A DNA stretch of 64,000 bases from Brachyspira suanatina. GTDB taxonomy: Bacteria > Spirochaetota > Brachyspiria > Brachyspirales > Brachyspiraceae. The notes under the pieces were generated by a model, which saw only the letters and a program-made list of their open reading frames with translations, was not told the origin of the DNA and searched no databases. Positions 1,027-4,534 of this stretch are shown in pieces. The first letter of the stretch is position 1. Every line of letters starts with the position of its first letter. The stretch covers positions 1 through 64,000 of the forward strand of contig NZ_CVLB01000003.1 of NCBI RefSeq assembly GCF_001049755.1, given 5' to 3'. Position numbers and translations under genes: made by a program.

Positions 1027-1290
1027 ATGAAAAAGCAAATAGTAATATTATGCTCTGGTATGTTGTATACTTTGAGCAAGTTTAGAAATAGTTCTTTAAT
1101 AGCTAGAAATACGGTACAAGTAAGTAAAAGCTTTTTTCTCAATATTCTTTTACCTTGTATTTTATATCGCAATAAAAATATACTTGTACCGTTTTTCATA
1201 AATCTCAAATTCGTTGAAATTATTATTTTTTTTAAAATAATACTTAGATTTAATAAAAACAGCTATTTATTTAAATATGTAAAGTATTAA
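1027..1290 (+). CDS. Possible small protein of 87 residues, or a structured RNA
   Basis: A promoter (924-951) and an AAAAGGA ribosome site ending about six bases before the ATG support expression. The predicted product begins MKKQIVILCSG and is hydrophobic and phenylalanine/isoleucine-rich towards its end, without a family I recognise. A 12-bp perfect inverted repeat (1111-1122 and 1181-1192) lies inside the frame and constrains the sequence, so the locus could be a structured RNA whose frame is incidental. A reading frame on the other strand (1005-1208) overlaps it because of the same inverted repeat. Weak call. Confidence 0.3.
   Translation: MKKQIVILCSGMLYTLSKFRNSSLIARNTVQVSKSFFLNILLPCILYRNKNILVPFFINLKFVEIIIFFKIILRFNKNSYLFKYVKY
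1111..1192. repeat. Inverted repeat with two competing pairings
   Basis: ACGGTACAAGTA at 1111-1122 is perfectly complementary to TACTTGTACCGT at 1181-1192, and the match extends outward to 16 of 17 bases. The same left arm (TACAAGTAAGTAAAAG, 1115-1130) can also pair with CTTTTACCTTGTA at 1147-1159, giving a shorter hairpin that excludes the long one. Such mutually exclusive hairpins occur in attenuators; here this is only a structural observation. Confidence 0.55.
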
Positions 1291-1369
1291 TTTAAATTTT
1301 TTATAGAATTATTAATTTTTTATTTTTTTTATTCAATAAATGTTTAAATTATACAAAATAATATTTTTA

Positions 1370-2455
1370 TTATAATTCAGGCAAATACCAAGTTATCCCT
1401 GTAGTAGATTCAAAGTATATAGGTATAGAAGAAGTCTGTCTTGAATTACCATTATTAATGTCCATTTCAAAATACCATTCAATATCTTGAACGGGAGTAA
1501 TATAAAGTTCTGCATAAGCTCCCCAATATAAATTATGCTGTACTTTATAATATTTACTATCAGTTTTATATTTTCCTTTATAAACGGCATTGTATCCTAA
1601 AGAAGGTTCAACATAAAGAGATAGCATATCACTGTTAGCAGTTAATCCTAATACAGCAGCAGCAGTTACATTATAAGGATTTTTTTCCCATTTATTTTCT
1701 TTTTTACTATAAGTAGTATTTACAAGAGATTCTCCTGCTCTAACCATTACATCACTGCTGGCTAAAGCTGTATTATATGAAACTTTAATAAAAGGATTAA
1801 TATTTACATTTCCAATTGTGCGGTTTAAGAAATATAGTCTAGTTTCAAAACCAAATGATTGAGCAAACATATCAAAATTATTTTTAACATTTTTATAACC
1901 TGACTGTCCATATTTTATGTATAATCTTACTTGATTGAATACATCTATTTCTGTATAGTATCTTATTTGTATATCTGTGCTTATTCCTAAATAGTCTTTA
2001 TATTGACTGATAGTATATTTTCCGAAAGGATCTTTTGATGCAGCTATTTGTATAGGTATTGCTATTCTTAAATTATTATTTAAAGCATTGACCATAAGTA
2101 CAGGAGTATGAACGCCTAAAGTGCTGTTATAATATGTAAAATTATATCCTAAGCCAATGCCGAAAATATCAGAAGTGTATCCTATTCCCATAGAAACAGT
2201 AGCATCTAATCCTAAATTATCTGTTTCACCTGAAATTATACTTCCCAATGATGTTACGGCATCTTGAGTTATAAGTCCGAAAGTACCTTTAATAGTATTG
2301 TTTCCAAGTACAAATCCTAATTGATCCATTCTGGCTCTTAATTGATTTCCAGCTGTAAGAAAATCAATCCAATCATCCTGATCGCCATACATACCAAAAA
2401 CAGATGTACTTGCCATAGCCAACAAAGCAATAGCAGTCAATAAAATTTTTTTCAT
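1370..2455 (-). CDS. Variable surface protein, Vsp family (361 aa)
   Basis: Secreted outer-membrane protein of the Brachyspira Vsp family, whose members form abundant roughly 39-kDa surface proteins. The first 21 residues are a signal peptide (MKKILLTAIALLAMAST..., ending at SVFG). They are followed by the family block WIDFLTAGNQLRARMDQLGF and ended by the conserved FESTTGITWYLP tail. Glycine/tyrosine-rich alternating stretches fit a beta-barrel. Start supported by AGGAGAGGAAA just before the ATG. It is the most diverged of the three copies here (TAGNQL for THGNQF, extra lysine-rich loop near residue 250) and its codons look less uniform than those of the plus-strand copy. Transcribed in the same direction as the next vsp gene but separated from it by a terminator and a 400-base gap, so probably expressed on its own. 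Confidence 0.92.
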   Translation of the reverse strand: MKKILLTAIALLAMASTSVFGMYGDQDDWIDFLTAGNQLRARMDQLGFVLGNNTIKGTFGLITQDAVTSLGSIISGETDNLGLDATVSMGIGYTSDIFGIGLGYNFTYYNSTLGVHTPVLMVNALNNNLRIAIPIQIAASKDPFGKYTISQYKDYLGISTDIQIRYYTEIDVFNQVRLYIKYGQSGYKNVKNNFDMFAQSFGFETRLYFLNRTIGNVNINPFIKVSYNTALASSDVMVRAGESLVNTTYSKKENKWEKNPYNVTAAAVLGLTANSDMLSLYVEPSLGYNAVYKGKYKTDSKYYKVQHNLYWGAYAELYITPVQDIEWYFEMDINNGNSRQTSSIPIYFESTTGITWYLPEL

Positions 2456-2799
2456 TTTCCTCTCCTAAAATATAAAAAATTATTCTCTTCTATATATAAT
2501 AATTATTATATAATAAAATTATAAAATGTACACTTACTATAAATAAAAATATAATTATCTTGACAAATTTACTATACTTTTATAAAAAATTTAAACAATA
2601 AAAGGTGATATCTTAATGATAGATTAATATGTTTTTAAATTATTAATTTGCTTATTATAATTATATTTATTAAATTATCATAGATAAATAAATTTAAAAA
2701 TCTGCTATTTTCTATATACAAAATAATATATATCAGTTTTAAAACTTTTTTATTTTTCTTCTATTATTTATATAGATTAAATATATAAGTTATATAAAT
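2456..2799. other. Upstream region of the first vsp gene, no clear promoter
   Basis: About 340 bases of very AT-rich DNA in front of the minus-strand vsp gene at 1370-2455. Apart from its AGGAG ribosome site I see only a weak minus-strand TTGTCA (near 2558) with a poor -10. The loop motifs found upstream of the other two vsp genes (AAAGATCCTCT, AGATTGCTT) are absent, so this gene does not share their control region. Confidence 0.4.
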
Positions 2800-2835
2800 A
2801 ATAAAAAAGAGGCTGACTTATTAAAGGTCAGCCTC
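2800..2835 (-). terminator. Rho-independent terminator of the second vsp gene
   Basis: GAGGCTGAC at 2809-2817 pairs perfectly with GTCAGCCTC at 2827-2835. On the minus strand the hairpin is followed by a run of T (2800-2808). It lies 26 bases after the stop of the gene at 2861-3955. Confidence 0.85.
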
Positions 2836-2860
2836 ATTAATTTTCTTAATTAACTTTTAA

Positions 2861-3955
2861 TTAATTGAAAGAAGGTAAATACCAAGTTATACCTGTAGTA
2901 GTTTCAAAGTATACAGGAACAGAAACAGGTGTAGTATAGCTATTACCGCTGTTATTAACATCCATCTCGAAGTACCATTCAAGATCTTGAACAGGTCTTA
3001 CATAAAGTTCTGCATAAGCACCCCAAGATAATTTATGAGTAGAAGTTGATTCTATACCTTTTTTCTGATAACCTGTAAGAGTATAACCTAAAGAAGGCTC
3101 AACATAAAGAGATACTACATCACTGTTAGCTGTGATTCCAAGTATAGGTTTGATGCTAAATTCATAAGGACTTACATCATATATATCTGATTGTTTTGAA
3201 TTATTATCTATGAAGTCATTATTCTTATATGAATATTCAGCTGTATAGTTTTTAGCAGCAGAACCTTTAAGAGCAGTATGATATTCAATTCTAACAAAAG
3301 GATTGATAGTTACATTTCCAACAGGAGTATTTAAGAAGTATAATCTTAATTGGAAACCTAAGCTTTCAGAAACTCCTTTAAAGCTTCCAGTATCAACTGT
3401 ATTATTTCTATAATATACATAGAATCTTATAGCATTGAAAGCATCTATACCAGTATAGTATCTTAACTGTATATTGTCAAAAGCAACGCCAGTATATTTG
3501 AAATTATTGATTTTTGTACCATTTTGTTTATCTGTAACAGCTACTTGTATAGGTATAGATAATCTTAAATTGTTATTTAAGAAATTCATAGTTAATACAG
3601 GAGTATGAACTTGAATATCTTTATTTATATAAGTGAAGTTGTATCCTACACCTATTCCAAATACATCAGAAGTGTAACCTATACCAGCAGAAAGAGTAGA
3701 GTTCAAAGAAGTACCGCTTCCTGTATCAGATAGTATGTTTCCCCAGTTACCTAAGTTAATAGTATTAGCTCTGAAACCAACAGTACCTTTAATAGTACCA
3801 TTACCTAAAACGAAACCTAATTGGTCCATTCTAGCTCTAAACTGATTACCATGAGTAAGGAAATCGATCCAAGAATCGCCTCTTCCATACATACCGAAAG
3901 CAGATGCACTAACTACAGTTAATATAGCCATAGCTGTCAATAAAACTTTTTTCAT
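2861..3955 (-). CDS. Variable surface protein, Vsp family (364 aa)
   Basis: Second Vsp paralogue: signal peptide of about 20 residues (MKKVLLTAMAILTVVSASA), then WIDFLTHGNQFRARMDQLGF and the closing FETTTGITWYLPSFN. Compared with the plus-strand copy, conserved scaffold segments (LRYYTGIDAFNAIR, FLNTPVGNVTINPF, EPSLGY, LSWGAYAELYVRPVQDLEWYFEMD) alternate with variable segments. This is the pattern expected for conserved barrel strands and variable surface loops. AGGAGAAAAACA precedes the ATG. Its predicted promoter (4048-4076, minus strand) would start the message near 4041, placing a perfect 12-bp hairpin (3991-4028) in the 5' leader. Family assignment is firm; the exact vsp letter is not assignable here. 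Confidence 0.95.
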   Translation of the reverse strand: MKKVLLTAMAILTVVSASAFGMYGRGDSWIDFLTHGNQFRARMDQLGFVLGNGTIKGTVGFRANTINLGNWGNILSDTGSGTSLNSTLSAGIGYTSDVFGIGVGYNFTYINKDIQVHTPVLTMNFLNNNLRLSIPIQVAVTDKQNGTKINNFKYTGVAFDNIQLRYYTGIDAFNAIRFYVYYRNNTVDTGSFKGVSESLGFQLRLYFLNTPVGNVTINPFVRIEYHTALKGSAAKNYTAEYSYKNNDFIDNNSKQSDIYDVSPYEFSIKPILGITANSDVVSLYVEPSLGYTLTGYQKKGIESTSTHKLSWGAYAELYVRPVQDLEWYFEMDVNNSGNSYTTPVSVPVYFETTTGITWYLPSFN

Positions 3956-3990
3956 TGTTTTTCTCCTAATTTTTTTATAATCTTTTGACA

Positions 3991-4041
3991 GTGTCTATTG
4001 AGAGATTGCTTAAAAACTCAATAGACACCTAAAGATCCTCT
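3991..4041. promoter_or_regulatory. Stem-loop in the leader of the minus-strand vsp gene, with loop motifs
   Basis: GTGTCTATTGAG at 3991-4002 pairs perfectly with CTCAATAGACAC at 4017-4028. The 14-base loop contains AGATTGCTT (4003-4011). Immediately beyond is AAAGATCCTCT at 4031-4041. Both motifs recur, on the same strand and in the same order, in the array in front of the plus-strand vsp gene. Read in the direction of the minus-strand message, the RNA would begin with AGAGGATCTTT, followed by the hairpin, about 36 bases before the ATG. Confidence 0.7.
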
Positions 4042-4047
4042 GCATTT

Positions 4048-4076
4048 CATTATAGTGAAAAGTTATAAAATGTCAA
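4048..4076 (-). promoter_or_regulatory. Consensus promoter of the minus-strand vsp gene
   Basis: On the minus strand, TTGACA (4071-4076) and TATAAT (4048-4053) are both perfect consensus hexamers with a 17-base spacer. This predicts a start near 4041 and a leader of about 85 bases. The strength fits an abundant surface protein. Confidence 0.75.
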
Positions 4077-4169
4077 TACGTATGTATAGAATTATATAAA
4101 AAAATCACCATTAAAGAACATATTTACATATTTTTTTCATAAAAAATAATAATTTTATTTATATTAGTG

Positions 4170-4198
4170 TTGACTTTTTTATGTAAATTCATTAGAAT
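4170..4198 (+). promoter_or_regulatory. Promoter of the plus-strand vsp gene
   Basis: TTGACT at 4170-4175 and TAGAAT at 4193-4198, spacer 17. Start predicted near 4205, giving an unusually long leader of about 330 bases before the ATG at 4535. A second TTGACA at 4299-4304 has only a weak -10 (TAATTT near 4322). Confidence 0.6.
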
Positions 4199-4205
4199 AA
4201 AAGTG

Positions 4206-4510
4206 TTGGTAAGATATAGACATTAAAAAAAGATTGCTTATAATGTCTATAACCAATATTAGGAACAATAAAGATCCTCTAAATCCTTATTATTCCAATT
4301 GACACATTAGTAAAAACAGCATAATTTTTCCATTTAAATATCTGTTTTTACGGAGAATAAAGATCCTCTAAATCTTATTATTCTCACTGATTTTTTATAA
4401 TCCGTTAGAATTATATAGATGTTCTAACGCATCTGGAAACAATAAAGATCCTCTGTCTTTGTTGTTTCCTAAAATTATTTTGGAGTTACTACTTACAATG
4501 AGTATTAACT
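4206..4510 (+). promoter_or_regulatory. Structured leader of the plus-strand vsp gene: six stem-loops with repeated loop motifs
   Basis: Six inverted repeats follow each other. (1) 4215-4225 with 4241-4251, extended by TTGGT/ACCAA at 4206-4210/4252-4256; loop holds AGATTGCTT (4231-4239). (2) 4262-4271 with 4287-4296, one mismatch; AAAGATCCTCT at 4270-4280. (3) GTAAAAACAG 4310-4319 with 4342-4351. (4) GAGAATAA 4353-4360 with 4378-4385; AAAGATCCTCT at 4359-4369. (5) CGTTAGAA 4403-4410 with 4422-4429. (6) 4435-4447 with 4457-4469, 13 pairs including one G.U; AAAGATCCTCT at 4444-4454. A last 9-of-10-bp hairpin (4484-4493 with 4501-4510) sits just before the ribosome site. The stems differ in sequence while the loop motif is kept, as expected for protein- or RNA-binding hairpins. 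Function unknown. Confidence 0.75.
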
Positions 4511-4534
4511 ATATAAAATTTTAGGAGAAAAACA

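Follow-up and report, generated by a model that had tools for sequence, protein, structure and literature searches.

The window, that is, the entire 64,000-nt stretch of Brachyspira suanatina DNA analyzed here, contains two divergently oriented variable surface protein (vsp) genes whose products both exceed the curated cut-off for the Serpulina_VSP family, PF05540 (402 and 359 bits vs 22.9). The rightward gene is preceded by an array of hairpins at positions 4206-4510 that was confirmed by examination of the sequence and, by cross-genome searches, found to be conserved across Brachyspira species. The array is part of the approximately 330-nt 5' leader of this gene (hereafter leader A). The neighboring, divergent vsp gene has a leader of its own, 86 nt long and located 200 bases from the array (leader B). 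The features of both leaders are collected in Table 1.

Table 1. Predicted and observed features of leaders A and B and of the adjoining genes (window coordinates).
Feature	Position	Strand	Basis or comment
Vsp gene behind leader B, 364 aa	2861..3955	-	PF05540, E = 4e-107
Leader B, 86 nt; predicted 5' end at AGAGGATCTTT	3956..4041	-	Fold z = -4.0; one copy per genome in 13 genomes
B block GATTATAAAAAA, directly 5' of the Shine-Dalgarno sequence AGGAG (3963-3967)	3971..3982	-	A-B complementarity
Long B hairpin; loop AAGCAATCT (4003-4011), complement of the H1 loop	3991..4028	-	Fold
AGAGGATCTTT, predicted B 5' end; complement of the H2, H4 and H6 loops	4031..4041	-	Motif scan, cross-species comparison
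Promoter of the B-leader vsp gene (TTGACA-16-TATAAT)	4049..4076	-	12/12 consensus, perfect sigma-70-type
Predicted promoter of the A-leader vsp gene (TTGACT-17-TAGAAT)	4170..4198	+	Consensus scan, 10/12; kept in 13 species
H1; loop AGATTGCTT (4231-4239), complement of the B hairpin loop	4202..4260	+	Outer stem wholly different between clades, still paired
Leader A, about 330 nt; start inferred about 7 nt past the -10 box	4205..4534	+	Fold z = -7.1; one full copy per genome in 13 genomes
H2; loop AAAGATCCTCT (4270-4280), complement of the B 5' end	4262..4296	+	Motif invariant in aligned species
H3; motif-free spacer hairpin	4310..4351	+	Both-side changes in 4/9 pairs; 72/72 cells paired
H4; loop AAAGATCCTCT (4359-4369)	4353..4385	+	Invariant
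Third complementary block TTTTTTATAATC; exact complement of the B block at 3971-3982(-)	4391..4402	+	Changed in step with B in G000 and G007; could alternatively pair in cis with the ribosome-binding-site region of A
H5	4403..4429	+	Fold
H6; loop AAAGATCCTCT (4444-4454)	4435..4469	+	Covarying stem; loop motif decayed in 5 species
H7; just 5' of the ribosome-binding site	4484..4510	+	Covarying pairs; recurs in other vsp leaders
Vsp gene behind leader A, 385 aa	4535..5692	+	PF05540 Serpulina_VSP, E = 4e-120

Folding of leader A yielded seven hairpins, H1 to H7, in agreement with the initial annotation of this DNA, which had reported at least six inverted repeats within about 300 bases. The predicted energy of the segment 4200-4534 is -84.6 kcal/mol, compared to -49.7 +/- 4.9 kcal/mol for dinucleotide shuffles. 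The loop motifs described in that annotation, an 11-mer, AAAGATCCTCT, at 4270, 4359 and 4444, and AGATTGCTT at 4231, were recovered in the motif scan of the window, and a promoter-like sequence is present where it had been placed. The scan also produced two copies that had been missed, one more AAAGATCCTCT (the fourth, at 4031) and one more AGATTGCTT (the second, at 4003), which are located just beyond the array, upstream of the divergent vsp gene. The four copies of AAAGATCCTCT in the 64-kb window compare with 0.12 expected; there are five copies in the whole 3.26-Mb genome, and the reversed control gave no matches. Because the copies at 4031 and 4003 belong to the leader of the divergent gene, the transcript of that gene carries their complements.

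At the level of the messages, leader A displays AGAUUGCUU in the H1 loop and AAAGAUCCUCU in the loops of H2, H4 and, often, H6, with a U-rich block, UUUUUUAUARUC, after H4. The B message consists, in order, of AGAGGAUCUUU at the predicted 5' end, the hairpin with the loop AAGCAAUCU, and GAYUAUAAAAAA just before the Shine-Dalgarno sequence; the assignment of the 5' end rests on the position of AGAGGATCTTT, which begins about 7-8 bases past the -10 box in every species. In the single-strand ensemble, the H1 and B loops are mostly unpaired, AAAGAUCCUCU in H2, H4 and H6 is partly so (0.4-0.6), and AGAGGAUCUUU is partly engaged in cis pairing within B. A small upstream ORF in B (AGAGGATCTTTATG...) was considered and dropped: G000 and G007 lack its ATG, and G002 and G008 have it in a different frame. 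Comparison of the leader with Rfam 15 gave no family above the gathering threshold, the best matches being far below it, and a nucleotide-level plasmid search gave no match.

The structure of leader A is maintained in evolution. In the alignment, 98.1% of the cells pair, and changes on both sides of a pair occur in 17 cells vs 5.0 +/- 2.5 in shuffled alignments; when the partners are slid by 1-3 columns, pairing falls to 43-53%. The covarying stems are H1, H6, H7 and, in the hand alignment, H3, which was misaligned by sequence (the values in Table 1 come from hand alignment of eight species). The claim that the stems change in sequence yet continue to pair thus stands for H1, H3, H6 and H7; it does not extend to H2 and H4, which hardly vary and, accordingly, neither support nor refute pairing. 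The U-rich block of A can also pair in cis with the A ribosome-binding-site region (helix 4), with all cells paired; this helix is unproven because it shows almost no variation. Stem covariation and conservation of the loop motif in related genomes, the lack of which had been named in advance as grounds for dismissing the array, are both present and, together with the PF05540 match of the downstream gene, bear out the view that the array belongs to an extended, structured leader at the 5' end of a vsp message.

When 26 Brachyspira genomes were searched with patterns, proteins and covariance models, the full A leader was detected, one per genome, in 13 (E-values from 6e-12 to 1e-19) and the B leader, also one per genome, in 13 (2e-18 to 2e-24). 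Both leaders are present in 11 genomes (G000, G002, G004-G010, G016 and G025); G015 and G023 have B without A, and G019 and G021 have A without B. Some of the single-leader genomes are broken assemblies (the G023 contig ends just past the neighboring vsp gene), but G021, which retains A, has no more than a 3' remnant of the syntenic B gene and appears to be a case of genuine loss of the 5' portion. In the recJ tree, all carriers of A or B belong to one clade, and the deeper-branching genomes have neither leader. The two leaders are about 412 kb apart in G010, about 259 kb apart in G016, and on separate contigs in G008, so that nothing depends on their adjacency.

The two leaders are complementary to one another. 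B carries exact reverse complements of both A loop motifs, namely, AGAGGAUCUUU at the 5' end and AAGCAAUCU in the hairpin loop. The loops of H2, H4 and H6 and the B 5' end form exact complements of 12 to 14 nt in every two-leader genome except G007, in which B reads AGAGGATATTT, with one mismatch to an unchanged A; H1 and the B loop are complementary over 8-10 nt in all 11 genomes with both leaders. The conserved 8-mers of A and B have 8 antisense words in common, compared to 0.17 expected and a maximum of 2 in 2000 shuffles. Among 98 within-genome pairs of vsp leaders, repeated stretches of complementarity, 10 nt or longer, were confined to A-B pairs, so that a general rule of mutual pairing among vsp leaders was rejected. 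Exact motif matches outside the vsp leaders were likewise rejected as further members: the remaining AAAGATCCTCT matches that were inspected have no hairpin context and resemble coding sequences of unrelated genes. The A-B cofold binding energy is moderately better than that of shuffles (z from -2.5 to -4.4).

A third complementary block links the two leaders, with TTTTTTATA(G/A)TC just after H4 in A facing GA(C/T)TATAAAAAA just before the Shine-Dalgarno sequence in B. In G000 and G007, which are sisters in the tree, ATAGTC in A is replaced by ATAATC together with replacement of GACTAT by GATTAT in B, and the other eight genomes with both blocks have ATAGTC in A and GACTAT in B; in G025, B also reads GATTAT, and the A block is deleted. 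The G-to-A change weakens the possible cis pairing of this block within A but preserves pairing with B. This is the sole clean case of compensation in trans and a single event that does not amount to a statistical series. In G008, G010 and G016, where the B loop is altered, A has gained a lineage-specific 10- to 11-nt complement to the altered loop.

These observations bear on the purpose of the array. The initial annotation had regarded the loops as possible devices for RNA-level control acting at multiple sites, which our comparison supports as the likely purpose, and had suggested an RNA-binding protein as one candidate ligand. The possibility that the A loops are bound by such a protein, or by an independent small RNA, the complement in B being a chance occurrence or a decoy, is consistent with the invariance and repetition of the loops, as is typical of protein sites; we nevertheless consider it very improbable, given that it does not explain why a second leader should carry three distinct, conserved blocks of complementarity, and that the genomes yielded no further copy of the motif within a hairpin. 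The exact complements of the loops are found in a second vsp leader of the same genome, and, with this partner at hand, the resemblance of CCUCU to an anti-ribosome-site (anti-Shine-Dalgarno) sequence becomes superfluous.

Pairing of the A and B messages is, on the strength of the sequence comparison, strongly implied, and in one large group of Brachyspira each message is likely to bind the other and to control its output. Binding in cells, as well as its direction and effect on expression, we infer from the same comparison. Specifically, we propose, with a probability of about 0.7, that A and B mRNAs bind in trans through loop-loop and loop-to-5'-end contacts that couple two interchangeable antigen slots, with A favored as the leader acting on B. 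Several observations weigh against this proposal: the mismatch in B of G007, the decay of the H6 loop in five species, the four genomes with a single partner, the moderate cofold z, the partial accessibility of AAAGAUCCUCU and the partial cis closure of AGAGGAUCUUU. Furthermore, the main motifs do not vary, a pattern that could also arise if they were conserved on other grounds.

Under the proposed scheme, the B loop would kiss the H1 loop, and the B 5' end would pair with any one of the H2, H4 and H6 loops. H1 and H2 are antiparallel and colinear with the B loop and the B 5' end, and the same holds for block 3 and H6 with respect to B block 3 and the B 5' end; either arrangement would tie up the B leader. 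The U-rich block of A would clamp the sequence beside the B Shine-Dalgarno sequence and hinder ribosome entry on B, the duplex at the B 5' end would alter the access of 5'-end-dependent RNases, and B binding would pull the U-rich block off its cis partner at the ribosome-binding site of A. The output of the two vsp slots would be tied together, whichever antigen gene fills them. Both RNase III and RNase J are encoded in the genome, with the RNase J homolog scoring above its cut-off. A search for Hfq gave no match in this genome and did produce matches in control genomes, so the pairing would have to be Hfq-independent. The terminator scan found no terminator-like site, and each of the two leaders precedes an open vsp gene; the U6 tract that follows H4 was considered as an intrinsic terminator and found no support in that scan.

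Repression of B by A is ranked first because block 3 faces the B ribosome-binding site. The same pairing could have the opposite outcome if the A loops shielded the B 5' end from RNase J and so stabilized the B mRNA, in the manner of RoxS-yflS. In every species, the complementary 11-mer is located at the predicted extreme 5' end of B, 7-8 nt past the -10 box, and the RNase J homolog along with the Bacillus subtilis precedent (PMC5419742) fits this option, which we rank second; it appears unlikely, in as much as it accounts neither for block 3 beside the B ribosome-binding site nor for the loop-loop kiss, and depends on a 5' end that is predicted. Ranked third is action of B on A, whereby binding of the B leader to the A hairpins would expose or block the A ribosome-binding site, A being a multi-site receiver. 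The presence of 2-4 receptor loops in A per one B is in line with such an arrangement, and the cis pairing of the U-rich block with the A ribosome-binding-site region implies that B binding would switch A; nevertheless, the near-invariance of the cis helix leaves it unproven, there is no sign of a released short B RNA, and no terminator-like site was found in the scan, so that we view this direction, too, as rather unlikely.

The favored A-B pairing resembles several known systems, although in none of RNAIII-coa, LhrC, SreA-prfA and RoxS are both partners leaders of paralogous antigen mRNAs. As in the pairing of Staphylococcus aureus RNAIII with coa mRNA, there would be a Shine-Dalgarno duplex, a loop-loop kiss and control of a surface or virulence protein (PMC2837412); the regulation of coa involves RNase III (PMC2837412). 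RNAIII is a dedicated regulatory RNA, whereas A and B both appear to be leaders of paralogous antigen mRNAs; complementary motifs displayed in hairpin loops, as in RNAIII-type kissing, are found here in the mostly unpaired H1 and B loops and, in part, in H2, H4 and H6. In the Listeria LhrC family, similarly to A, a C-rich motif is repeated in the loops and linkers of one RNA and binds surface-protein mRNAs (reviewed in PMC8079631), but the LhrCs act as free small RNAs on several targets by means of UCCC motifs, whereas A and B would rely on an 11-mer and one partner per genome. The Listeria SreA riboswitch, acting on the prfA leader, is a 5' leader RNA that pairs in trans with the leader of another mRNA (PMC8079631), as A would with B; it does so as a terminated riboswitch fragment, whereas neither terminator nor ligand was seen for A or B. 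RoxS of Bacillus pairs with the very 5' end of yflS mRNA (PMC5419742), as A would with B, and here, too, an RNase J is encoded whose access could be blocked; RoxS itself is a small RNA. Long conserved complementarity to another mRNA, as in trans-acting, base-pairing leader RNAs of the SreA or irvA type, is apparent for A and B. In Streptococcus mutans, irvA and gbpC reportedly provide a case of mRNA-mRNA regulation of a surface protein in trans, which A-B would resemble except that those genes are unrelated and do not have paired leaders of one family.

If two antigen slots are linked directly at the mRNA level, this would represent antigen regulation that needs neither a DNA switch nor Hfq, and A and B are a rare case in which both partners of a putative trans RNA interaction can be traced across about a dozen species. 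We know of no described mechanism behind the differential expression of Vsp/Bhmp39. Such expression has been reported (Witchell 2006 and McCaman 2003, as cited in PMC5415613 and PMC2897892). It has been proposed to aid immune evasion. Our literature search returned no earlier description of the A-B leader pair; Witchell 2006 and McCaman 2003, which are outside that search, might mention upstream repeats.

The leaders and the genes behind them have different histories. In the protein tree, the A- and B-leader genes (L270-L289) intermix: the A genes of G000 and G007 cluster with the B gene of G007, and the A gene of G002 with the B gene of G002. The leaders thus appear to resemble fixed addresses whose contents, the coding sequences, can be exchanged and are shuffled between species; that the leaders stay distinct while the coding sequences are exchanged argues that selection acts on the leaders. 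One can envisage a two-slot, RNA-run antigen system in which fixed complementary leaders receive antigen genes swapped in by recombination, with coupled or reciprocal expression through mRNA-mRNA kissing; we put this broader scheme forward tentatively, as possible but doubtful. Shuffling of the vsp coding sequences, the inverted orientation of the B segment compared with G007 and a tyrosine recombinase fragment at 62-484 could also be taken to indicate that the motifs are DNA sites, recognized by a transcription factor or used for site-specific inversion of vsp cassettes, the opposite orientation of A and B reflecting inverted sites. The chances of this appear slim, considering that the motifs are in hairpins with covarying stems (H1 and H6) and are kept when A and B are far apart. 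Inversion sites at the motifs were rejected given that the sole joint seen, at 4129-4156, is about 75-115 bases from the nearest motifs, with both leaders intact alongside.

Several additional features of vsp leaders and of this region were noted. An H7-type hairpin (GUUA-UGCC...GGUA-UAAC) before the ribosome-binding site recurs in the array-less vsp leaders L093, L106, L127, L129 and L147. A degenerate, shortened A-like leader (AAAGATACTCT) precedes a second vsp gene in G009 (L082, G009:C2:258300-259100), and the A array is shorter by about 85-90 nt in L088 (G025) and L098 (G010), apparently via recombination between the repeated hairpins. In a clade without A and B, a different vsp leader (L127, L129, L141 and L147) contains a candidate conserved hairpin starting with AGCTATGAGTA... 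behind a TTGACA promoter. The tyrosine recombinase (PF00589) at the contig start, beside the vsp cluster, consists of the C-terminal part, the N-terminal part being missing. The segment inverted relative to G007 spans 1217-4156 and includes two vsp genes; its left joint is near the contig start, and 1217-2523 is 96.6% identical in reverse.
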